A program made the translations under genes and the position numbers. A DNA stretch of 44,090 nucleotides from Chloroflexota bacterium. Its GTDB lineage: Bacteria > Chloroflexota > Anaerolineae > UBA1429. The notes beneath the pieces were generated by a model. It saw only the letters and a list, made by a program, of their open reading frames with translations, was not told where the DNA came from and did not search any database. The stretch's first letter is position 1, and each line of letters opens with the position of its first letter. Below, one piece after another: positions 2,544-15,800 of this stretch. Where the stretch lies: NCBI GenBank assembly GCA_012719135.1, contig JAAYAW010000045.1, positions 1 to 44,090 of the forward strand, in the 5' to 3' direction.

Positions 2544-3051
2544 TCGAAGCGGCTCACTGGCATTTGGTGGTGCTCTCGTATTGGTTGGCGTGTACTTGCT
2601 CCTTCGGGCTCTGGGTACGCCACTCCCCGGATGGGATATCCTGTGGCCCGCGCTGCTGATTGCCGGGGCGCTCGCGAGCCTGATTCAGGGCCTGTCGAGC
2701 CAGCCCCGTGATACGGGCGCGGTGTGGTTCGGGGTAGCGGGCACTCTGGCCGGCTGCCTGTTCCTGTACATCACGGCAGGACGAGGGCGTTGGGAGGACA
2801 TGCGGGAGCTTTGGCCGGTGCTTCCCGCCGCAGCAAGCCTGGGCTGGTTGGCTGCCTGGATCACCGACCGGCGGGAGATCTCTTCTCTGACCATGGCGGT
2901 GATCGCCGGCGCGGGCGCTCTGGTCGGATACTGGTACAGCCTCGGGCGTGTGGCAGAGAGCTTTGGGAGACAACTCGCCTCCTGGTGGCCGCTGCTGTTG
3001 ATCGTCCTTGGGCTGGCCTATATCGCGCAGTTCCTGGTCCAGAAGCGCTAG
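2536..3051 (+). CDS. Small multi-pass membrane protein, LiaI/LiaF-like
   Basis: The 171-residue protein has about five hydrophobic segments and almost no soluble part. Its first half resembles the LiaI/LiaF-like transmembrane module (DUF5668 type): a Gly-rich first helix followed by a Pro-Gly-Trp-Asp turn and a second helix. I chose the ATG at 2536 because GGGAGG sits 5 bases upstream, although the frame is open further upstream. The start overlaps the end of mevalonate kinase by 8 bases, implying translational coupling. Function is not known; LiaF-type modules occur in envelope-stress proteins, but there is no sensor kinase here. Confidence 0.65.
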
Positions 3052-3052
3052 G

Positions 3053-4168
3053 ATGCGAATCGGGATCGATGCCAGCCGCGCCCTGCGCCCTGAGCGCACC
3101 GGCACGGAGAACTATTCGCTGCACCTGATCCGCGCATTGCTCGCTCTGGATACGTCGCACCAGTTCACCCTGTACGCGGATCGCGAGCCAAAACCCGGGC
3201 TGTTTGAGACGGGGCGAGCCCAGTGGTGCGTTCTGCCTGCGCGCAGACTGTGGACGCACTGGCGACTGGGCTGGGAAGTGACCGTTCGGCCGCCCGACGT
3301 CCTGTTCGTTCCGGCGCACGTGCTGCCGATCGTCCGCCGGTGCCCTGGCGTGGCCACGATCCATGACCTGGGATACCTGTATCATGGCACCAAGCACAGG
3401 CCGCTGGATCGCGCCTACCTGCGGCTGGGAACGGCGTGGAACTGCCGCAGCGCCCGTCGCATCGTGGCGGATTCCCAGGCCACACGCCGGGACATCATCG
3501 CCGAGAGGCTCTGCTCGGAAGACAAAATCGTCGTCGCGTACCCCGCCGGCACACCGGGCATGGAACCAATACGGGATTCGACACGGCTGAGAGAGGTGCG
3601 GGATCGCTACCGCACGGGCGAGTCATTCGTATTGTATGTGGGCACCCTCCAGCCCCGCAAGAACCTGGAGACACTGATCCATGCCTTTGCCGGGCTGGTC
3701 CGCGCTCAGCACCTGGATGGTGTGCAACTGGTGCTGGCTGGCCGCAAGGGCTGGTACCATGAGCGGATTTTGGCTGCGGTGCACGCCTCCGGTGTGGCCG
3801 ATCGGATGGTCTTGCCTGGCTATGTCGAGCCCGAGGATCTGGCGGCGCTTCTGAGCGCGGCGGAGTGCTTTGTGATGCCGAGTTGGTGGGAGGGGTTTGG
3901 CCTGCCGGTCCTGGAGGCGATGGCCTGCGGGACGCCCGTGATCTGCTCTTTGGCCTCCTCGCTGCCCGAAGTGGCAGGGGAAGCGGCCTTGCTCTTTGAG
4001 CCTGGCGATCAGCGGGCATTGGAACAGGCGCTGTTGAGGGTCTTTCAGGAGCCCGGCTTGCGAGCCGAGATGGCCCGCGCCGGCGTGGAGCAGGCCGCGC
4101 GCTTCTCCTGGGAGACCTGCGCCAGAGAGGTGCTCAGTGCTCTGGAAGATGCAGGGCAAAAGGAGTAG
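3053..4168 (+). CDS. Glycosyltransferase, GT4 family
   Basis: The 371-residue protein has the GT-B architecture of family 4. Its N-terminal domain begins MRIGIDASRAL and carries TGTENY, typical of mannosyltransferase-like members. The C-terminal donor-binding domain has LYVGTLQPRKN, the PGYVEPEDLAALLSAAECF region and the conserved E-x7-E element in EGFGLPVLEAMACGTPV. It probably transfers a hexose from an activated sugar to a lipid or polysaccharide acceptor in the cytoplasm. The start is 2 bases after the preceding stop. The sugar specificity cannot be read from sequence. The WecG-type gene next to it suggests a shared glycan product. Confidence 0.85.
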   Translation: MRIGIDASRALRPERTGTENYSLHLIRALLALDTSHQFTLYADREPKPGLFETGRAQWCVLPARRLWTHWRLGWEVTVRPPDVLFVPAHVLPIVRRCPGVATIHDLGYLYHGTKHRPLDRAYLRLGTAWNCRSARRIVADSQATRRDIIAERLCSEDKIVVAYPAGTPGMEPIRDSTRLREVRDRYRTGESFVLYVGTLQPRKNLETLIHAFAGLVRAQHLDGVQLVLAGRKGWYHERILAAVHASGVADRMVLPGYVEPEDLAALLSAAECFVMPSWWEGFGLPVLEAMACGTPVICSLASSLPEVAGEAALLFEPGDQRALEQALLRVFQEPGLRAEMARAGVEQAARFSWETCAREVLSALEDAGQKE

Positions 4169-4174
4169 AATCGC

Positions 4175-4927
4175 TTGAGCTCGATTCGCATTCTGGGGGT
4201 TCGGGTCGACGATGTGACGATGCCGTCCACGCTCGCAGTGATCGCGCGGATGATCCGCGAGGGCGGCGCGCACCAGATCGTCACGGTGAACCCCGAGTTT
4301 ATCATGCGCGCCGAGCGCGAGCCGGCCTTTGCCGCTGTTCTGGAGCGAGCCGATCTGGCGATACCGGACGGGCAGGGGATGCTGTGGGCTGCACGGCTGC
4401 TGGGCCGCCCTCTTCAGGCGAGAGTTGCGGGCTCGGATCTGGTGCCGCTGCTGGCGGAGCAGAGCGCCAGGGAAGGGCATCGGCTCTTTTTGCTGGGCGC
4501 CGCGCAGGGCGTCGCGGAGATTGCGGCGTCATGCCTGGAGGGGCGATACCCTGGCGTACGGATCGCCGGCACGCACGCGGGATCCCCGCGAGTGGAGGAC
4601 GATGCGGAAAGCCGGGCGCGGATCCGGGACAGTCAGCCAGACGTGCTTCTGGTCGCCTACGGTGCACCCGCGCAGGACATGTGGATCGCAAGAAACCAGC
4701 CGCACCTCCAGGTGCCCGTGGCCATCGGCATCGGCGGCAGCCTGGATTTTATCGCGGGCGTGCAAAAGCGCGCGCCGCTGTGGATGCGTGAACACGGTTT
4801 GGAGTGGCTCTATCGTCTGATCCGCCAGCCGTGGCGCTGGCGGCGCATGGCGGTATTGCCAGTCTTTGCGGGGCGGGTGCTGGCCGTCCGGCTACAAGGG
4901 AGGAAGGAGAAGCGATGCGACGGTTAA
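4175..4927 (+). CDS. WecG/TagA/CpsF-family glycosyltransferase (GT26)
   Basis: This 250-residue protein belongs to the family that adds a second sugar to a lipid-linked first sugar, such as ManNAc or ManNAcA transfer in teichoic acid and enterobacterial common antigen synthesis. Conserved elements are the PEF motif near residue 45, the Asp-Gly pair in IPDGQGM, the GAPAQDMW segment, and the C-terminal basic region (GLEWLYRLIRQPWRWRR) that binds membrane in the TagA structure. It starts with TTG; AAAGGAG lies 9 bases upstream. It ends 13 bases inside the next gene, so expression is probably coupled to the Cys-repeat membrane protein. The true donor sugar is unknown. Confidence 0.85.
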   Translation: MSSIRILGVRVDDVTMPSTLAVIARMIREGGAHQIVTVNPEFIMRAEREPAFAAVLERADLAIPDGQGMLWAARLLGRPLQARVAGSDLVPLLAEQSAREGHRLFLLGAAQGVAEIAASCLEGRYPGVRIAGTHAGSPRVEDDAESRARIRDSQPDVLLVAYGAPAQDMWIARNQPHLQVPVAIGIGGSLDFIAGVQKRAPLWMREHGLEWLYRLIRQPWRWRRMAVLPVFAGRVLAVRLQGRKEKRCDG

Positions 4928-6645
4928 CCAGGGCGGCCTGGATGGCGCTGGCGTTGGGTCTGCTGGTTTTGGTGTTCACGGGCGCCGTCACCGCACAGGG
5001 AGACCCCGTCTCGCTGGACAGGATCGAGAACTATGTAGTCGTCCTGGACGATGGACGGCTCGATGTGCGCTACGCCATCACCTTCACCGAGCTCGAGTCT
5101 GCAGGCCGTGAGAGGTTTCGCGAGCTCGGCCAGTTCCCGACGCCGCACACGATCGTGGACGCGTACGGTGAGGGCCCCGGCGGACGGTTCGCGGTGAACC
5201 TGAGCGGCGGGCCCACGGCCTATGCCGTGAACTTTGGGACCCGAACAGAGCCAAACAACCAGTACACCGTCCATATTCGCTACACGCTGGACCGGTCCGC
5301 CTTTGACGCGACCCGGTTCGACGGGCAGAGCTATACCGCCATCGGCTGGGCGCCGTTCCAGTGGTCGCTCGGCATCGCCTACCAGGAGATCCGCTTTATC
5401 CTGCCCGTGGAGCTTCCAGCAGAAGTGACGACGCCGGAGCAGGTCACGGATGAGATCGTCAACGCCGCAGGCCTTATCGCCAACAATGCCGATGCTTTCG
5501 ATCGCTGGGTGTACTTTGTGACGCCCGATGAGGCCAGCGGCAATAACTATCTCTCTCTGCTCGTGGCAGAGAACAATCTGCCGCCCATGGGCCAGATGAT
5601 CGCGCAGTTGTTCCTGCCCGGCAAGGAGATCACCACGACCAAAGAGACGCCGATTCCACTCGGCGTCACGACGCCGGAGACAGAGACAGAGTCGGAGCCC
5701 TTCCGCTTTGAGGATCTGTTCAATGAGCTGACGTGTTGCGTCGGTGGGGGCGTAACCGCGGCGGTTCTGGGCCTGGTGATCTGGGCGCTGCGCAAACGCA
5801 AGCCCAAGCCCACCTACATGCCCCCAGAGATCGAGGTAGAGACCTTCCAGACCGAAGGCGTAGTGCCGGATCTCAACGCGATCGAGACCGCCTTTTACAT
5901 GGGCAACTCGACCAAGACCGTGGCCCTCATCGTGGTCTCTCTGGAGCAGAAAGCCTTTGTCAACATCCTGAACAGGCAGCCTCTGCAGCTGGAGTTCCTG
6001 CGCAGAACCCCCGCAGAGGTGGCGGCGCTGCCCGGCTACGAACAGGCGCTCCTCAAGGCCATCCAGGAGGATGGCACGATCGATAAGGAGCAGATTCCGG
6101 TCATCCTCAAGGCAGTGGCGGATGTCGTCCAGCCCAAGATGTGGAATGCCGATCCTGACAAAACGCGGGATTCCTACCGTCGCAGGATCGAGGATGCCTG
6201 GCGCGAGTACCAGCAGGAGACGCAATCGGGCACACCGGTCCACATGCCTTCGTACATGCCGTGGATCATTCTGAGCGACCATACCTACAGCCCCGCCGGC
6301 GTTCCGAGACCGGCAGCCAGCCAGAGCGCGCCGGGGCCGCTCTTTACCATGGCCGACGAAGCCGTCCGGCCGCTGGAGACGATGGCGACGCAGCTCACCC
6401 AGGGTGTGGAGCAAGTCATGGGGCGCACCGTGGATCGGATCGAACAGGGAGTGGGCCGGTTTCTGGGGGAAGATGTCACGGCGCCGAGCCACAGCGCCTG
6501 CCATAGCGCTTGTCATTCGGCCTGCGTGCACGATGCCTGTCACTCGGCCTGCGTGCATGACGCCTGTCACTCTGCGTGCCATAGCGCCTGCGTGCACTCG
6601 GCCTGCCACAGCGCCTGTCACTCTGCCTGCGTGAGCCGGGTGTAG
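4915..6645 (+). CDS. DUF2207-like membrane protein with a C-terminal His-Ser-Ala-Cys repeat tail
   Basis: The 576-residue protein has a signal peptide (1-28), an extracytoplasmic beta-rich region (about 30-270), one membrane helix (about 274-294) followed by RKRKPKP, and a cytoplasmic part (about 297-520) that resembles the cytoplasmic half of DUF2207/YciQ-type proteins. The striking part is the tail: residues 526-572 are eleven four-residue units, mostly HSAC, two of them HDAC, in groups separated by single Val. By the positive-inside rule the tail is cytosolic, where the radical SAM protein encoded 5 bases downstream could reach it. The tail may be a modification substrate, as the His-Xaa-Ser tail of HxsA is thought to be, or a metal-binding array. 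The ATG at 4915 has AGGAAGGAG upstream and overlaps the preceding gene by 13 bases. Confidence 0.75.
   Translation: MRRLTRAAWMALALGLLVLVFTGAVTAQGDPVSLDRIENYVVVLDDGRLDVRYAITFTELESAGRERFRELGQFPTPHTIVDAYGEGPGGRFAVNLSGGPTAYAVNFGTRTEPNNQYTVHIRYTLDRSAFDATRFDGQSYTAIGWAPFQWSLGIAYQEIRFILPVELPAEVTTPEQVTDEIVNAAGLIANNADAFDRWVYFVTPDEASGNNYLSLLVAENNLPPMGQMIAQLFLPGKEITTTKETPIPLGVTTPETETESEPFRFEDLFNELTCCVGGGVTAAVLGLVIWALRKRKPKPTYMPPEIEVETFQTEGVVPDLNAIETAFYMGNSTKTVALIVVSLEQKAFVNILNRQPLQLEFLRRTPAEVAALPGYEQALLKAIQEDGTIDKEQIPVILKAVADVVQPKMWNADPDKTRDSYRRRIEDAWREYQQETQSGTPVHMPSYMPWIILSDHTYSPAGVPRPAASQSAPGPLFTMADEAVRPLETMATQLTQGVEQVMGRTVDRIEQGVGRFLGEDVTAPSHSACHSACHSACVHDACHSACVHDACHSACHSACVHSACHSACHSACVSRV
6490..6630 (+). 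repeat. Coding array of eleven 12-bp His-Ser/Asp-Ala-Cys units
   Basis: Eleven in-frame 12-base units code for four residues each and are split into groups of 3, 2, 3 and 3 units by single Val codons. Every unit keeps His at position 1, Ala at 3 and Cys at 4; position 2 is Ser in nine units and Asp in two, and both Asp units directly follow a Val. Synonymous codons vary freely (CAC/CAT, AGC/TCG/TCT, GCC/GCT/GCG, TGC/TGT). The peptide is therefore conserved more than the DNA, which argues for selection on the tail. Confidence 0.9.
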
Positions 6646-6650
6646 AGGGG

Positions 6651-8117
6651 ATGATGGTGCCCAACGAGAGCGCGACGCCGACCGAATTGAGCCGAGGCCC
6701 GGTGAGCCTGCAGTCCTTTGCGGAACAGGTAGTTAACTCGACCCGGGAGTACATCTATATACGGCCAGAGGATGGGCTGATGATCATCCGCCCCAGCCGG
6801 CTGCATCACCTGAACCCGATGGCCACGCAGATGCTGCAGAGCCTCTACAACAGGCCTGGCGGGCCTGATGTGGAGGGCCTGGTCTCCGAGATCAGCGAGC
6901 TCCATGGCGCAGACAGGGAGCGCGTCCGCACGGACCTGACCACGCTGCTGCAGGCGCTCGTATCGGTGCTGGATGATCGCATTATGGACGTCCCAGGCGT
7001 CAAGGTTACGGCCTTTGGCAGCCACAAGCGCACGTTGCCGGTGCTCTCGGAGATCGCGCTGACATACCGGTGCAACAACCGCTGCACGTTCTGCTACGCA
7101 AACGCACCGAACCGGGGAGACGCCGTACCGGAGATGTCGACCGAAGAGGTGCAAGCCATCATCGGCCGCATCGCCGATGAGGCCCACTGTCCGACGCTCT
7201 CCTTCACGGGCGGCGAGCCCACGCTGCGCGAGGATCTGGTGGAACTCGTGCGCTATGGCGCACAAAAGGGACTGCGCGTCAACCTGATCACCAACGGCGT
7301 GCGCTGCGGCAATGCCGCCTACGTCCAGGCGCTGGCGGACGCCGGGCTGGACTCGGCCCAGGTCAGCATAGAGGGAGGCAGCGCCCTCATCCATGACGCG
7401 ATCACGCAGCACCCCGGTTCCTGGGCACTGGCAACTCAGGGGGTGCGGAACCTGCGCGAGGCGGGCATCCATACGCACACCAACACGACGCTTTGTGGCG
7501 GGAACCGTGCACACCTGCACGAACTCGTGGATTACCTCAAGGACGACCTGGGGAGCACCTACTTTTCGATGAACATGGTCATCCGGACGGGGACGGCACT
7601 CGACCATGCCGAAGATGACATGTCCTATGCCGAGGTAGGTCCCATCATCACCGAGATCCAGGATTATGCCACAGGAAGAGAGATCGAGTTCATCTGGTAC
7701 TCGCCGATACCGTACTGCCTCTTCAATCCCGTGCAGGCCGGCCTGGGAAGCAAGTCCTGTGCCTGTGTGGATGGCCTCATCTCCGTGAATCCCTCCGGAG
7801 AGCTGTTGCCTTGCTCCAGCTTTGAGAAGGGGATCGGTGACCTGCTCCACAGGCCGTTTGAGGAGGTGTGGAACAGCCGGGCAGCGCACTACTGGAGGAA
7901 CAAGGAGTTTATCCCGCCAGTGTGCGAGCGCTGCGAGATCCGGCACATCTGCTGCGGAGCCTGTCCGCTCTACTGGGCGCAGCGGGGCGGGTTTCAGGAA
8001 CTCGCCGGCATCGCCCCGGGCGGATCGCTGAAAGCAGACGTGGCCTGGCGGGCCAAGAAGGCGTTGTTCTCCGGAACATTCGGCGTCGGCCTGGGGCCCA
8101 AGAGGGGGAGAGGGTAG
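6651..8117 (+). CDS. Radical SAM/SPASM protein with PqqD-like N-terminus, probable peptide maturase
   Basis: The 488-residue protein has a PqqD/RRE-like N-terminal region (about residues 15-105), the family element that usually grips a leader or substrate peptide. The radical SAM domain follows, with the cluster motif C141-x3-C145-x2-C148 and the SAM-contact FTGGEPTLRED. The C-terminal SPASM-type region has Cys at 370, 372, 388, 425, 428, 434, 435 and 438, enough for auxiliary iron-sulfur clusters. This layout is that of enzymes that crosslink or epimerise ribosomal peptides. It directly follows the His/Cys-repeat protein, the obvious candidate substrate. GAGGGG abuts the first ATG, so the ATG at 6654 or the GTG at 6657 could be the real start. 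Substrate and chemistry are inference. Confidence 0.85.
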   Translation: MMVPNESATPTELSRGPVSLQSFAEQVVNSTREYIYIRPEDGLMIIRPSRLHHLNPMATQMLQSLYNRPGGPDVEGLVSEISELHGADRERVRTDLTTLLQALVSVLDDRIMDVPGVKVTAFGSHKRTLPVLSEIALTYRCNNRCTFCYANAPNRGDAVPEMSTEEVQAIIGRIADEAHCPTLSFTGGEPTLREDLVELVRYGAQKGLRVNLITNGVRCGNAAYVQALADAGLDSAQVSIEGGSALIHDAITQHPGSWALATQGVRNLREAGIHTHTNTTLCGGNRAHLHELVDYLKDDLGSTYFSMNMVIRTGTALDHAEDDMSYAEVGPIITEIQDYATGREIEFIWYSPIPYCLFNPVQAGLGSKSCACVDGLISVNPSGELLPCSSFEKGIGDLLHRPFEEVWNSRAAHYWRNKEFIPPVCERCEIRHICCGACPLYWAQRGGFQELAGIAPGGSLKADVAWRAKKALFSGTFGVGLGPKRGRG

Positions 8118-8125
8118 ACAAAGAC

Positions 8126-9310
8126 ATGGCTGTACAGAACGGACAGGGCTATGTACTGACTCTGAGAGAGTTCGACCGGTACCTTAAGGACAAGAACCGC
8201 GAACTCGACCAGTGCGTCTCGGAGGTGAGCGAGGTCCAGGAGCGCCTCCGCGCCGAGTTCCAGCGCGAACTGGAGGCCTGGCAGGGGCTCTTTGGGTACT
8301 GCTACCCGCAGGTGGTCACGCGCCGGCCAGAACTCCCCGCGGATTTCGGCGCGTACCTGGATCGCATCGAGGCCGAGGAACGAGCCAAGCTTGAGGGCGA
8401 AGTGGCCGAGTTGAGCGAACAGCTGGCCGCGGGCAGAGAGGCGATCGACCGGGGCACGCTATCGGCCCAGGAGGCTACACGCGCCCTCCGCGCCGCGAAT
8501 CCGGGTCTGGATGCCCAGGAAGAAGCACTCAAGCGCACGATCGTCAGACTGCAGGACGAGTACACGGAGGCCTACCAGACGCTCCAGGAGGCTCGCCAGC
8601 CCTTGTTCGGGTGGCTGGCCAACGCCAGCGCCATCCGCAAGGCCAGGCGCAGCCAGGCCGAGATCAAGAAGAAGCAGGCCGAGGCGATCGCCAAGTTGCG
8701 CCAGGTTCGTCAGAACTGGCTGACCGCCGTCCAGGAGACCAGCGAAACGCAGTCCAAGCTGCGGGAGCAATGGCAGCAAGCCACCATTGACACGGCGGAG
8801 CGGCAGGCGCGCTATGACTATGTGCGCAACAACCTCGCCGAACTGGCCGCGCAGCAGGGAGTCCAGCGGGCGCTGAGTGAGATGACGGACGGGCCGTCCA
8901 TGGACGATGAACTCGGCAGCAAGCTTGGAGAGCTAGCCGAGCACAACGCCATCCGCGCGCGCTTTGAGGAGGGACTGGCGGCCACCTCCGAATGCCTGGG
9001 CCTGGTACGCGGCATCGGCACCGGCCTGGCCAAGTTCAGCGAGAGCGTCAGCCAGGTGCTCGGCGAGCAGAAACGGTACGGCCTCAAGGAGATCCAGATC
9101 GTCGTCACCAAAGAGGTCGCTGCCGTCAACCAGACCTGGGCCGCCCTGGCTGAGAAAGCCACGGATGAGGAGCGAGCGGTTGGCTCTCCGCTAGAGTTTG
9201 CGCGGATCGCGCGTACCTATGTTAACGAGCGACTTACACCGCAGGCCATAGAGCGCTTTTTCGAGACCATGGGTGACGCACTGAACCTGGCTACCAAGAC
9301 CTGGAACTAG
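8126..9310 (+). CDS. Coiled-coil protein of unknown function in the radical SAM operon
   Basis: The 394-residue soluble protein has no signal peptide or membrane helix. It is Glu/Gln/Arg/Ala-rich with long heptad-like helical stretches (about residues 75-260), then a more globular C-terminal half (about 260-394). The ATG at 8126 is 8 bases after the radical SAM stop and follows a GGGGGAGAGGG purine tract; the frame is open further upstream but that would overlap the enzyme. I do not recognise a named family. Its position between the radical SAM gene and the zinc-ribbon gene suggests a scaffold or partner for the Cys-tailed membrane protein. Confidence 0.75.
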   Translation: MAVQNGQGYVLTLREFDRYLKDKNRELDQCVSEVSEVQERLRAEFQRELEAWQGLFGYCYPQVVTRRPELPADFGAYLDRIEAEERAKLEGEVAELSEQLAAGREAIDRGTLSAQEATRALRAANPGLDAQEEALKRTIVRLQDEYTEAYQTLQEARQPLFGWLANASAIRKARRSQAEIKKKQAEAIAKLRQVRQNWLTAVQETSETQSKLREQWQQATIDTAERQARYDYVRNNLAELAAQQGVQRALSEMTDGPSMDDELGSKLGELAEHNAIRARFEEGLAATSECLGLVRGIGTGLAKFSESVSQVLGEQKRYGLKEIQIVVTKEVAAVNQTWAALAEKATDEERAVGSPLEFARIARTYVNERLTPQAIERFFETMGDALNLATKTWN

Positions 9311-9334: not shown

Positions 9335-9823
9335 ATGAAGAAACTCGGCGCAGCCCTAATTGCTCTGCTATCGATTCCCTTCTTCACTTTTGGTCTCATC
9401 TTTCTGATCGCCGCCAGCTCCACGTCACGGCTGCTCACGGCGCTGGCCCTGTTGGCGATCGGCGTCGTGCTGCTGGTGGTGGGCGTGCGCCGTTTGCGTC
9501 GTCTGGCGTCCATCAGCGAGGACGCCCTGATGAGCGGGGCGGTCGAGATGGCCAGGCGCATGGGCAGCGAACTGACCGTTGCCCAGCTCCAGGCAGAGTA
9601 CAACATCCCGCAGTCGCTGGCCCAGCGCGTGATGGACAAGCTCACCGAGGCCGGCACAGCGGTGGCAGAACAGCGCGAGGATCGCGTCGTCTATGTATTC
9701 ACCGGCCTGCTCCCTGCGATGGCGCGCAAGCTCTGCCCCTACTGCGGCACAGAGCTGCCCGTCCGGGAGGCCCTTCGCAAATGTCCGAACTGCGGCGCAC
9801 AGCTGGAGATCACCAAAACCTGA
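9335..9823 (+). CDS. Small membrane protein with winged-helix-like and zinc-ribbon domains
   Basis: The 162-residue protein begins with two membrane helices (about residues 5-27 and 31-50). A cytosolic helical region of about 65 residues follows (LTVAQLQAEYNIPQSLAQRV), which looks like a winged helix-turn-helix. It ends in a zinc ribbon with C134-x2-C137 and C150-x2-C153. A ribosome site (GAGGAG) precedes the ATG. The combination suggests a membrane-tethered binding protein rather than an enzyme. It is spaced 24 bases after the coiled-coil gene and 8 bases before the peptidase gene, so it belongs to the same operon. Its target is unknown. Confidence 0.75.
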   Translation: MKKLGAALIALLSIPFFTFGLIFLIAASSTSRLLTALALLAIGVVLLVVGVRRLRRLASISEDALMSGAVEMARRMGSELTVAQLQAEYNIPQSLAQRVMDKLTEAGTAVAEQREDRVVYVFTGLLPAMARKLCPYCGTELPVREALRKCPNCGAQLEITKT

Positions 9824-11790: not shown

Positions 11791-13161
11791 CTACAGCAGG
11801 CCTGCCAGCCTTTCCCCGAGCGCCGGCAGGTCTTGATCGGCCACGGTGCGCAGGTCGAGGACCACACGATCATCCTGGATGCGGGCGATCACGGGCGGGT
11901 CACCGGACCGAAGCTGTTCGGCCAGCCATTCGGCATGGCCCGCCGGCAGCGCCAGCAGGGCGGTGGGGAGGGACTCGCCGGGCAGCGAACCCCCGCCGAC
12001 CGTGGATAGGCCGGGCATCACCTCGCAGCCTTCCGCGCGCGAGCCGAGTGCGGCCAACAACTCCCGAGCTGCTCGCTCGATATCCTCGGCAGAGCGCGAC
12101 ATCATGCGCCAGACGGGGATCTCCTCAACCGCTTCGCCCCGCAGATAGTGCAGCAGGTTCGCCTGAATCCCCGCAAGCGTAGCCTTGTCCACGCGTAGAG
12201 CACGGGTGAGGGGATGCTCCCGTAGCCGCCGGATCAGGTCCGCCGAGCCGACGATCATTCCGGCCTGCGGACCGCCCAACAGCTTGTCGCCGCTGAACGT
12301 CACAAGATCGGCACCATCCGCGAGGCTCTCGGGCACAGTGGGCTCATGGTGAAGCCCATACCGGGCCGTATCAAGCAGGGTGCCGCTCCCCAGATCCTCC
12401 AGGCAGAGCAGGCCGCGTCCGTGGGCCAGTTCGGCCAGATCGCGCAAGGGCGCCTGGTGGACAAAGCCTTCCATGCGGTAGTTGCTGGTATGGACACGCA
12501 ACAGCGCGACAGTTCGCTCGCCGATGGCGCAGCCATAGTCCTGGAGGTAGGTGCGGTTGGTCGTACCCACCTCCACCAGGTCGGCCCCACTCTGCGCCAT
12601 CACATCGGGGATCCGAAAGCCGCCGCCGATCTCCACCAGCTGTCCCCTGGAGATCACCACCTCTCGATCCCGCGCCAGAGCAGAGAGCACCAGCAGGACG
12701 GCACCGGCGTTGTTGTTCACCACCAGCGCGGCTTCGGCTCCGGTCAGCCTGCGCAGCAGGCTCTCCGCGTGCACGTACCGGGAGCCCCGGCTACCGGCGG
12801 CCAGGTCGTACTCCAGGTTGCTGTACCCGGAGGCCGCTCGGCGCATCGCCTCCAGAACGGCAGCGCTCAACGGGGCGCGGCCGAGGTTGGTGTGCAGGAT
12901 CACACCGGTTGCATTGATGACCGGATGGAGCGTGGGCTCGCCTGCGGCGCCCGCCAGCGACAGAGCCCGCGCGAGGAGGTCCAGAGTGGCGGGGCACGCA
13001 GCGCCGGCCAGGATGCTTTCACGCGCCTCAGCCAGGGCGCTGCGCAGCGCGTCCACGGCGAGATCTCTTCCCGCCGATGCGACCAGGGCCTCCCCCTGGG
13101 AAGTATGAAGAAGCGCATCTACCGCCGGCAGGGCGCGCAGCCGCTCGTTCGTATCATCCAT
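11791..13161 (-). CDS. selA: L-seryl-tRNA(Sec) selenium transferase
   Basis: The 456-residue PLP enzyme converts seryl-tRNA(Sec) to selenocysteyl-tRNA(Sec) using selenophosphate. The family core is complete: NATGVILHTNLGRAPL (about 83-98), the VVNNNAGAV loop, and the PLP Lys at about 293 in TFSGDKLLGGPQAG. Length matches E. coli SelA. The ATG at 13161 was chosen because GGAG lies just upstream, and it begins 4 bases after the ferredoxin stop. The gene is therefore the last member of a molybdopterin-oxidoreductase operon. No selB, selD or tRNA-Sec is visible in the window, and the oxidoreductase here does not use selenocysteine. Confidence 0.93.
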   Translation of the reverse strand: MDDTNERLRALPAVDALLHTSQGEALVASAGRDLAVDALRSALAEARESILAGAACPATLDLLARALSLAGAAGEPTLHPVINATGVILHTNLGRAPLSAAVLEAMRRAASGYSNLEYDLAAGSRGSRYVHAESLLRRLTGAEAALVVNNNAGAVLLVLSALARDREVVISRGQLVEIGGGFRIPDVMAQSGADLVEVGTTNRTYLQDYGCAIGERTVALLRVHTSNYRMEGFVHQAPLRDLAELAHGRGLLCLEDLGSGTLLDTARYGLHHEPTVPESLADGADLVTFSGDKLLGGPQAGMIVGSADLIRRLREHPLTRALRVDKATLAGIQANLLHYLRGEAVEEIPVWRMMSRSAEDIERAARELLAALGSRAEGCEVMPGLSTVGGGSLPGESLPTALLALPAGHAEWLAEQLRSGDPPVIARIQDDRVVLDLRTVADQDLPALGERLAGLL

Positions 13162-13165
13162 CAAT

Positions 13166-13711
13166 CTACTCCTCTCCGTCAGGCGGCCGCACGAGATATC
13201 GGACGCGAGGCCCGATTCCCCGATCATCCCAGCCAGGATCGATGACGCGCGGGCGGCTCAGCTCCGACGCAGGGCCATAGTAGAGCGCCCGCATCGGGCA
13301 GGCACGGACACAGGTCGGCCCGATCCCGGAGGCTACCTCATCAGCACACCCATCGCACTTTGTAGCGCGCCCGCCGGGATCGATCGAGATAGTACCGAAC
13401 GGGCAACTGGCCACACAGGCCCCGCAACCGGTGCAGAGCCCCGGATCGATCTGAACCCACTGGCCCACTCGTCCGATGGCGTCCACAGGACAGACGCCGA
13501 AGCAGGGGGCCTCAGTACAGTGGAAGCAGTGCATGGGCCTGAAAGTCAGTTGTACCGCCGGGAAGCGCCCGCCCTCGGCGCGCTCCACCCAGAGCCAATC
13601 CAGGTCATCCGGCACGCCGGCGCGATCCTTGCAGGCGATCACACAGGTGAAACAGCCCGTGCAACGGGCCAGATCGATGGTGAACACGTCCCCTGCGTCA
13701 CGGCCGGGCAT
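13166..13711 (-). CDS. Four-cluster ferredoxin subunit, DmsB/NrfC-like
   Basis: The 181-residue protein carries sixteen Cys in four [4Fe-4S] motifs: C17-x2-C-x2-C-x3-C first, then CFHCTEAPCFGVCP, CTGCGACVASCP, and a last split motif CDGC...CVRACP. This is the electron-transfer subunit typical of DMSO-reductase-family enzymes. The start at 13711 (MPGRDAGD) overlaps the oxidoreductase stop by 14 bases; longer upstream readings would lie wholly inside that gene. It has no Tat signal or membrane anchor, and no DmsC/NrfD-like anchor is encoded nearby, so the complex is probably soluble and cytoplasmic. Confidence 0.88.
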   Translation of the reverse strand: MPGRDAGDVFTIDLARCTGCFTCVIACKDRAGVPDDLDWLWVERAEGGRFPAVQLTFRPMHCFHCTEAPCFGVCPVDAIGRVGQWVQIDPGLCTGCGACVASCPFGTISIDPGGRATKCDGCADEVASGIGPTCVRACPMRALYYGPASELSRPRVIDPGWDDRGIGPRVRYLVRPPDGEE

Positions 13712-15800
13712 CTTCACGCTCCACCTGCACCCAGTTGCTGTGAGTCGTTGGCCCGCCGGTGGGGGAGAGCGTCGTGGCGGTGAGGGTGTTGGCGCAGCCT
13801 CCTTCATCGATGCCGCCATCCCCCAGCAGCAGCCAGGCGCCCTGGGCCACCGAGACGACCCCCGGCATGATCCGCTCCGTTACATACGCCCTGATGCGAA
13901 TGACTCCTCCCGGTGCCGATACGCGCACCGGTACCCCCTCGGTGATGTTGCGGGGAGCGGCATCCGCCGGGTTGATCCACACCGCGTGCGGTTCCACGCG
14001 CTGCAGCCAGGGGTTTGCGGCCAGGCAGGAGTTGGAGCGCGCCTTGTGGTGCGGGGTGAGGAGTTGCAGCGGATAATCCGGCGCCGGCGCCTTCTGCGGT
14101 ACGTAGGCTGCGACCAGCGGCAGGCCGACATCCAGGGCTTCCGGGTTGGATAGTTCGATGCGGCCCGAGCGCGTACTCAGGGCGTGCTCATCCGGATTCT
14201 GGCGGTAGTCGGCGAGTTCGACGCGCGGTGCCGGGTCGCAACGCAGAATCCCCGCCTCGCGAGCGGCATCCCAGGGCAGCGGACTGCTGCGCCGGATCTC
14301 ATCAAGCCAGGCAGCCTCATCCCTGCCCCGGGTGTAGGCCTGTCCGATGCCCAGGCGTTCGGCCAGCCGGGACATGACCCAGTAGTCGCTCTTGGCCTCG
14401 CCCGCGGGCGCGAGCGCCTGCCGGCTGTCGAACAGGTGGGCATCATGCCCCCACGAAGTCACCAGATCCGCGCGCTCCATCTCCATGCTCGCAGGGAGGA
14501 CCAGATCGGCCTGGCGCGCAGTCGGGGTAAAGAACGGGTCCTGAACCACCACAAAGGGCACCTGGGCCAACGCGGCGACGCAGGCCAGGCTCTCCTGGCT
14601 GCGGTTCACCAAGTTGCTGGCGACCACATAGAGGACACGTGGCGGTGGCTCGAGCCGCCCGCCCAGGATCGCCGGTGCCCAGGAGCCAGGCGGCAGCATC
14701 CTACCCGGCGCATAGGGCCCCCAAGGCAAAGGAGCCAGATCGAAGAGGCTGCCGGAGCGACCACCATAGCCCCCCAATCCACCGCCGCACAGTCCCACGT
14801 TGCCGCTCAGGCAGGCAAGCGAGATCAAGGCGCGGGCGGATTGCTCGCCGGAGACCGTGCGTTGCGGGCCCCACCCGGCGAGCAGTGCCGCGGGCCGATC
14901 GGTCGCATAGCGCCGCGCCAGCGAGCGGATCGCGGCCGCGGAGACTCCGGTGATCGGCTCGGCCCACTCCGGCGTCCGAGGATCCCCGCCATCCTCACCC
15001 AGCACATAGGCGCGATAGTCCTCCAAGCCGGACACACAGCGACCGAGAAAGCCGGCATCCTCCAGGCCGTCACTCAGTATGACCCAGGCCATGGCGGCAG
15101 CGAGGGCGGCGTCCGTTCCCGGCCGGAGCGGAATCCATTCATCGGCCAGGACGCCGGTATCGGTATAGCGCGGATCCACCAGCACGATGCGGGCGCCCCG
15201 ATCGCGCGCCTCTGCAACAAAGTGCGCCGTATTCGGCCCCATTTGCGTCTCGGCAGGGTTATTGCCCCAGAGCACAATCAGGCGGCTCTCCAGGAGCGTC
15301 GCACGATCCGAGCCGGAGAGGTGTCGCCCGACCATCCAGCGGTGAGCCCTGAGCACGTTGTGCACGGACATGTTCCCATCGATCCCCGTCACGGGGCCAA
15401 GGAACGAGAAAAAGCGACGCGAAGCCTCCGCGCCCGAGATGCCCCGCCCTGAAAGGGCTCCGGCTCCTGTGGCGTGAAGGATGGCCGCTGCTCCGTCTTT
15501 GGCGAGGGTTTCCCGCAGCCGCGTGGCGATGACGTCCAGCGCCTCATCCCAGGAGGCCGCCGCCCATGAGCCGGCCCCGCGCGGTCCGCTGTGTACCATG
15601 GGATGGAGCAGGCGCTCCGGTGCGTTCAGCGCGCGGCGGTGAGCACGCCCGCGCAGGCAGGGAACCAAGCGAGGCATAGCCGTCGAATCGGGCCGGCCGG
15701 CAGGCGTGTCTATCCGGACGAGGCGCCCGTTCTCGACGCAGGCCACCAGTTCACAGCGGCTGCCACAATCCAGGGTGCAGGTGAAAGGGATGCGTTCCAC
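13698..15800 (-). CDS. Molybdopterin oxidoreductase, DMSO reductase family
   Basis: The 700-residue catalytic subunit has an N-terminal [4Fe-4S] site (C8, C12, C16, C48), the molybdopterin-binding core (VLWGNNPAETQMGPNTAHF, LVDPRYTDT) and the C-terminal dinucleotide-binding domain (LLTPHHKARSNS). At the Mo-ligand position the sequence reads GNMSVHN, so Ser145 is the likely ligand, as in DMSO/TMAO-type reductases, not Cys or selenocysteine. There is no Tat signal, which points to a cytoplasmic enzyme. The start codon is GTG, 6 bases after the preceding stop and with a weak ribosome site. Substrate is unknown; polysulfide, thiosulfate, DMSO-like and oxyanion reductases share this fold. Confidence 0.87.
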   Translation of the reverse strand: MERIPFTCTLDCGSRCELVACVENGRLVRIDTPAGRPDSTAMPRLVPCLRGRAHRRALNAPERLLHPMVHSGPRGAGSWAAASWDEALDVIATRLRETLAKDGAAAILHATGAGALSGRGISGAEASRRFFSFLGPVTGIDGNMSVHNVLRAHRWMVGRHLSGSDRATLLESRLIVLWGNNPAETQMGPNTAHFVAEARDRGARIVLVDPRYTDTGVLADEWIPLRPGTDAALAAAMAWVILSDGLEDAGFLGRCVSGLEDYRAYVLGEDGGDPRTPEWAEPITGVSAAAIRSLARRYATDRPAALLAGWGPQRTVSGEQSARALISLACLSGNVGLCGGGLGGYGGRSGSLFDLAPLPWGPYAPGRMLPPGSWAPAILGGRLEPPPRVLYVVASNLVNRSQESLACVAALAQVPFVVVQDPFFTPTARQADLVLPASMEMERADLVTSWGHDAHLFDSRQALAPAGEAKSDYWVMSRLAERLGIGQAYTRGRDEAAWLDEIRRSSPLPWDAAREAGILRCDPAPRVELADYRQNPDEHALSTRSGRIELSNPEALDVGLPLVAAYVPQKAPAPDYPLQLLTPHHKARSNSCLAANPWLQRVEPHAVWINPADAAPRNITEGVPVRVSAPGGVIRIRAYVTERIMPGVVSVAQGAWLLLGDGGIDEGGCANTLTATTLSPTGGPTTHSNWVQVEREDARP

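Follow-up and report, generated by a model that had tools for sequence, protein, structure and literature searches.

A membrane protein and an adjacent radical SAM/SPASM enzyme encoded by a Chloroflexota bacterium probably form a conserved protein-tail modification system. Their genes lie in a stretch of 44,090 nucleotides (assembly GCA_012719135.1, contig JAAYAW010000045.1, positions 1 to 44,090 of the forward strand), which is called the window here. The membrane protein, P0001, is the carrier of 11 H[S/D]AC units at residues 526-572, followed by the C-terminal VSRV. This array had been noticed in a preliminary description of the window, and translation gave exactly the same units. Pairing, specificity and domain logic at the sequence level point to the enzyme, P0002, very probably acting on this tail. 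The features of the two genes are as follows.

4915..6645 (+): carrier gene P0001, 576 amino acids (translation, AlphaFold2 (AF2) model, hydropathy of homologs)
5725..5793 (+): transmembrane (TM) helix of P0001, followed by RKRKPK, positive-inside (translation, hydropathy, AF2 model)
6490..6630 (+): array of 11 H[S/D]AC units, the presumed enzyme substrate (translation; kept in homologs)
6651..8117 (+): radical SAM/SPASM enzyme P0002, 488 amino acids, the presumed tail modifier (Pfam, NCBIfam, alignment, linkage)
6792..6962 (+): PqqD-like (RRE-type) N-terminal domain of P0002, residues 48-104 (Pfam PqqD)
7071..7094 (+): CxxxCxxC radical-SAM cluster motif of P0002, residues 141-148 (alignment)
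7716..7964 (+): SPASM region of P0002, residues 356-438 (enzyme alignment)

P0002 starts 5 bases past the stop codon of P0001, and its Radical_SAM (98.5 bits), SPASM (32.5 bits) and PqqD (26.5 bits) domains all score above the Pfam cut-offs, as expected from the earlier reading of the gene. The PqqD domain is also detected in L169, an enzyme of the sister system described below (24.2 bits; cut-off 23.4). C141, C145 and C148 of the cluster motif are invariant in 76 of 76 aligned enzymes. Altogether ten Cys are invariant across this alignment, including C356 ahead of the SPASM pattern, and the SPASM Cys of P0002 are arranged as C370-X12-G-X4-C388 and C425-X2-C428-X5-C434-X3-C438. Six of the seven Cys of the SPASM pattern (CX9-15GX4C ... 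CX2CX5CX3C ... C) are at canonical spacing, and the last is not conserved.

Linkage of array and enzyme across genomes

The preliminary description had suggested looking for C-terminal HSAC arrays across genomes and for their co-occurrence with this enzyme family, and the pairing was strongly supported in both directions. A DNA pattern for HxACHxACHxAC, scanned over genome contigs, gave at least 116 stretches. After translation and frame removal there were at least 93 C-terminal arrays on open frames, including two from Chloroflexota (L165 and L166) that were reached via the enzyme. Among the matches listed, the arrays occur in about 25 phyla of bacteria and archaea, and a P0002-type enzyme is present in the retrieved locus DNA of 80 of the 93 arrays. 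The enzyme is directly downstream on the same strand in 77 of them, divergent in two Thorarchaeota and upstream of the array in one Thermoproteota. Most of the other 13 arrays, which have no enzyme at the locus, are masked or are cut short where the locus ends. When the whole genomes were searched, 12 of these 13 had a strong enzyme elsewhere, and the 13th (L046) has a partial enzyme gene at a contig end. Carrier homologs commonly lacking an adjacent radical SAM gene were looked for and not seen.

In the reverse test, the search was begun from the enzyme alone, without the array ASCERTAINMENT. In 247 Spirochaetota genomes, 11 of 11 places scoring above 240 bits adjoin an HSAC gene, compared with none of the 17 that score 124 bits or less. 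The same search over 289 genomes of the Verrucomicrobiota phylum group gave three places, all with the array. An enzyme homolog is present in 75 of 227 genomes of Asgard archaea. Ten loci from Thorarchaeota were read, and eight have a divergent HSAC carrier adjacent to the enzyme; of the other two, one is cut by a contig end and one has its array at a distance of several kb on that contig. Among 400 Chloroflexota genomes an HSAC array was found in three (G000, G136 and G011), and these are the same three in which the enzyme scores above 500 bits.

Phyla were assigned from the organism titles of the loci in the enzyme tree, and most of these loci are from metagenome-assembled genomes (MAGs), so single phylum assignments may be contaminants. 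They comprise Chloroflexota, Spirochaetota, Planctomycetota, Acidobacteriota, Kiritimatiellota, Verrucomicrobiota, Lentisphaerota, Armatimonadota, Abditibacteriota, Sumerlaeota, Omnitrophota, Elusimicrobiota, Aminicenantes, Caldifarciminota/WOR-3, Hydrogenedentota, Nitrospirota, Bacillota, Thermodesulfobacteriota, Bacteroidota, Pseudomonadota, Calditrichota, Gemmatimonadota, Myxococcota, Riflebacteria, Cloacimonadota, Thermoproteota, Heimdallarchaeota and Thorarchaeota. One cultured host of the pair is Desulfobulbus alkaliphilus DSM 24258 (L073), and a pair close to that of the window is present at L045.

Several pattern matches were set aside after translation. Matches in two further Chloroflexota genomes encode words of the HRAC/HPAC type, those in L054, L067, L115, L140, L148, G172 and G307, for example, do not form the C-terminus of a carrier of this kind, and matches on viral contigs were also discarded. 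Three IMG/VR contigs (L150, L151 and L152) have short NSAC/HSAC repeat frames with neither carrier nor enzyme, which may be a chance reading of a DNA repeat. One Myxococcales MAG (G400) has two HSAC carriers (L038 and L044) and one enzyme, and the second carrier is directly followed by the third gene described below. One enzyme may therefore serve two tails.

A sister system uses more distant relatives of the enzyme. Another 26 Anaerolineae enzymes, and the second enzyme of G011, adjoin a carrier ending in CACACAGCACACAGGGR or nearly so. The CACACAGCACACAGGGR-tail pattern matched 27 of the 400 Chloroflexota genomes, which is the same set as the enzyme genomes (27/27), and many other Asgard archaea have a CACACA tail beside the enzyme. 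Hidden Markov models made with the HSAC carriers detect the cytosolic domain in 43 of 43 CACACA carriers (best E value 3e-29). The carriers are thus homologous, and the grammar of the tail is different. Tail type follows enzyme phylogeny: it changes 5 times on the enzyme tree, compared with 51.9 times in shuffles, in a tree made by a quick method and with some long branches. The CACACA loci, such as L169 (9394-12706), also encode, beside carrier and enzyme, a methyltransferase and a pseudo-enzyme, namely a second PqqD/radical-SAM-like protein in which most of the cluster Cys are missing. These two proteins suggest additional steps in the CACACA system.

Carrier, tail and neighbouring genes

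In the AF2 model of P0001 (61 sequences, mean pLDDT 80), a signal peptide (residues 2-23) and a beta-sandwich ectodomain (32-235) are followed by one TM helix (271-293), a cytosolic winged-helix-like domain (320-437), a helical linker and the array. The folded domains have pLDDT above 90 and the tail is unordered. Most carrier homologs have the same layout by hydropathy, and a weak hydropathy peak near residue 340-350 coincides with a helix that the model assigns to the cytosolic domain. Positive charges behind the TM helix place the tail in the cytosol. The tail and the C-terminal half of the carrier are therefore predicted to be on the same side of the membrane as the enzyme. The suggestion made earlier that the tail stays on the membrane protein is consistent with this model, in which a signal peptide and a TM helix precede a predicted cytosolic tail at the extreme C-terminus, and with the lack of a peptidase among the recurrent neighbour families.

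Among HSAC carriers, pairwise identity is about 25% for the bodies and about 82% for the tails, the latter being partly inflated because three units were prescribed by the retrieval pattern. That pattern puts no constraint on the other units, the V spacers or the C-terminus, and the same tails are seen at loci found via the enzyme. Among the matches listed, serine codons of both the AGY and the TCN set occur together in 45 of 93 arrays, and a median of 83% of an array's HSAC 12-mers are distinct DNA words. The mixture of AGY and TCN codons and the differing 12-mers rule out repeat expansion or recent duplication at the DNA level, and an assembly artefact is ruled out by conservation of the tail in independent genomes. 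Because the tail is common to bodies that are only about 25% identical and is encoded by varied codons and 12-mers, it is neither a product of chance nor of recent DNA duplication. The tails have 8-13 Cys at close spacing, and the arrays are followed by short C-termini that are conserved (VSGG[SA][HR] and AGGGR).

Two genes downstream of the enzyme belong to recurrent families.

8126..9310 (+): third gene, 394 amino acids, a long coiled coil with small terminal elements (AF2 pLDDT 90)
9335..9823 (+): fourth gene, a 162-residue membrane protein with a winged-helix-like part and a zinc-ribbon C-terminus (Pfam; recurrent neighbour)

The family of the third gene was found at 14 loci, all of which have valine-spacer arrays ending in VS.F/V. 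Plain arrays with VSGG-type C-termini have instead an unrelated membrane protein of about 330 residues, which was found at 32 loci, and there was no mixed case. The two types of downstream partner suggest a common modified tail with different read-outs. Pfam has no name for the coiled-coil gene or for the 330-residue protein, and a fold search with the third gene found generic coiled coils alone. The fourth-gene family is present in six further loci. A small conserved protein of about 130 residues is encoded upstream of the array gene in L034, L061, L092, L096 and L102, and it is thus seen next to carriers from Thorarchaeota, Aminicenantes and WOR-3.

Other genes in the window were judged by eye from translations. 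Directly upstream of the carrier, 3008-4927 (+) encodes glycosyltransferase-like and WecG/TagA-like proteins, and the WecG/TagA-like gene overlaps the carrier start. Further downstream, a SelA-type (selenocysteine synthase) protein at 11791-13227 (-) is accompanied by two further proteins, one ferredoxin-like (13166-13819) and one large and molybdopterin-oxidoreductase-like (13698-15800).

Possible chemistry of the tail

Position 2 of the HSAC unit varies (S, D, N and others), and Cys is the most conserved residue and is common to both tails. The CACACA array has no His or Ser, so that Ala-Cys is the sole element common to HSAC and CACACA tails. Because Cys is fixed, SPASM/RRE enzymes commonly make thioethers and Cys-Ala acceptors are known, P0002 may well form thioethers, and we adopt this tentatively. 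The proposal in the preliminary description that the Cys are crosslinked or otherwise modified on a retained tail is partly supported. The enzyme would dock on the carrier via its PqqD-like N-terminal domain, possibly at the conserved cytosolic domain around W410, D413 and W450, and move along the array, modifying every Ala-Cys unit while the tail is still attached. The likeliest chemistry would be a thioether (C-S) linkage between each Cys and a residue close to it. The best candidate acceptor would be Ala, because Ala-Cys alone is common to both tails, and Ala residues accept Cys thioethers in Trn-beta and RumC1 (PMC8172795). The product would be a compact appendage, depleted of thiols, on a protein anchored at the cell surface. 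As a working guess, it might serve as an interaction or sensing module that is read out by the clade-specific third gene.

Some observations weigh against this interpretation. The canonical seventh (last) Cys of the SPASM pattern is not conserved, and a Cys after C438 is present in 31 of 76 rows of the alignment. PqqD was undetected by Pfam in enzyme L121. The nearest NCBIfam models of the enzyme are heme-pathway and PqqE enzymes, all far under cut-off, so the sequence gives no pointer to thioether formation. Four Asgard loci (L267, L272, L273 and L274) have enzymes in or near the CACACA clade with no carrier adjacent; two of these genomes encode a tail of the expected type on a different contig, and two have none by the exact pattern. 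Cys-rich tails could also bind metal unmodified.

A first alternative is that P0002 modifies the tail without thioethers, for example by epimerisation, by C-C bonds at His, Ser or Ala, or by oxidising Cys or Ser in the manner of anaerobic sulfatase maturation, and that the array becomes a series of side chains that all bear one and the same modification. The chemistry of SPASM enzymes is diverse, there are known repeats in which every unit is modified once, such as cyclopropylglycine in TVGG repeats (PMC9062424), and no thioether-maturase cut-off was reached by the enzyme. The conservation of Cys in both tails, the variable position 2 and the absence of His and Ser from CACACA arrays weigh against such chemistry, and we regard it as unlikely, though it is the most credible of the alternatives.

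The tail might also be a metallothionein-like array of metal or cluster ligands, with the enzyme responsible for a minor or unrelated maturation step. The many close Cys, the His of the HSAC type and the reducing cytosolic location agree with this, as do the carriers' hosts, largely MAGs of lineages that are expected to be anaerobic. However, so nearly absolute a pairing with a single radical SAM clade, and a tail grammar that co-varies with that clade, would be unexpected for a simple ligand array, and the CACACA type has no His. This explanation is distinctly unlikely. It is even less probable that the tail is a sorting or cleavage signal, or the precursor of a released peptide with the carrier as a very long leader. 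The conserved short C-termini fit this idea, as does an enzyme with PqqD resembling those of ribosomally synthesised and post-translationally modified peptides, but no recognised protease, peptidase or transpeptidase is among the recurrent neighbour families. In addition, the tail is predicted to be cytosolic behind a TM helix, and the body is a large, folded and conserved membrane protein. Attachment of c-type heme, with an unrelated enzyme, is suggested by CHSACH, which includes C-X3-C-H overlapping through the array, but it has almost no likelihood, since overlapping motifs would share Cys, the tail is predicted to be cytosolic, the sister tail has no His and no cytochrome maturation family is among the recurrent neighbours.

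Relation to known systems

The preliminary description compared the locus with the His-Xaa-Ser (Hxs) system. The resemblance of a repeat-tailed substrate beside radical SAM genes holds. However, Hxs has an HxsB/HxsC pair, whereas the window and the homologous loci have a single radical SAM gene beside the array, and P0002 does not reach the HxsC cut-off (71.5 against 267.9 bits). HSAC units also contain Cys, and the sister CACACA arrays have no His or Ser. TIGR04117 and the TIGR04222/MNIO tails are nearer relatives than Hxs.

TIGR04117 (Syntroph_Cxxx, a Cys-Xaa-Xaa-Xaa repeat radical SAM target) has Cys at every fourth residue, like the HSAC tail. Its model is 98 residues long and thus describes a small peptide, unlike the tail of a membrane protein of about 570 residues. 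It matched 14 of 61 HSAC carriers weakly (best E value 2e-4; 15.4 against 50 bits in L139). TIGR04222 membrane proteins have Cys-rich, low-complexity C-terminal tails, often beside MNIO (DUF692) enzymes that are proposed to modify them (PMC12452194), and in this they are like the carrier. They differ in having an MNIO enzyme and Ser/Gly-rich tails predicted to be periplasmic, and they are mostly from Actinomycetota, whereas the ordered array is predicted to be cytosolic and is paired with a radical SAM/SPASM enzyme. TIGR04222 matched 17 of 61 carriers weakly (best E value 9.5e-9), with listed scores up to 31.5 against 43 bits. P0001 itself reached no NCBIfam equivalog cut-off and had no match to TIGR04222 or TIGR04117. 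DUF2207 proteins have the same kind of domain order by model, but P0001 scored 16.1 bits, below the gathering score of 24.4. A PDB sequence search found no relatives of P0001, and a fold search found just the beta-sandwich of M1 aminopeptidases and oligosaccharyltransferase subunits, at low TM-score.

Sactipeptide and ranthipeptide maturases (AlbA, SkfB, CteB, RumMC and PapB) and QhpD are radical SAM/SPASM enzymes, often with an N-terminal RRE, that act on Cys of a ribosomal substrate, as is proposed for P0002. The substrate of QhpD is a large protein (PMC8172795). In contrast to these systems, the substrate here would be a membrane-protein tail with no leader and no adjacent peptidase or exporter. 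P0002 reached no NCBIfam equivalog cut-off. The maturase models StsB (95.8 against 625 bits in P0002), AlbA (62.1 against 850 in L121) and PapB (54.9 against 340 in L121) were far from their cut-offs. A PDB sequence search with P0002 matched general radical SAM enzymes alone, and a search of a plasmid collection gave just PqqE-like matches of about 27% identity. For CXXX-repeat and ACGX systems, the MNIO/TIGR04222 paper alone was relevant among the open papers (PMC12452194). The earlier remark that no HSAC system had been described agrees with our search of the open literature, subscription papers being mostly outside it, in which no paper contained HSACHSAC and none joined DUF2207 to radical SAM. 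This probable way of modifying a protein tail is apparently undescribed, and neither Pfam and NCBIfam nor the open literature that was searched has a name for the pair.

Radical SAM peptide modification has been studied mostly for secreted antibiotics and cofactors. The pair described here resembles a cellular fixture, with near-identical tails, occurrence in bacteria and Asgard archaea and a strict match of enzyme and substrate. In its fullest form, our interpretation is of an ancient cross-domain modification, in about 25 bacterial phyla and Asgard archaea, in which a dedicated radical SAM enzyme would turn the cytosolic Ala-Cys array of a transmembrane protein into a multiply crosslinked appendage with an envelope function, with no release as a natural product; this is possible and is put forward with caution. 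The HSAC and CACACA pairs of enzyme and tail offer enzymologists a ready series for probing enzyme action, and the function of the widespread DUF2207/TIGR04222-like membrane proteins becomes testable.
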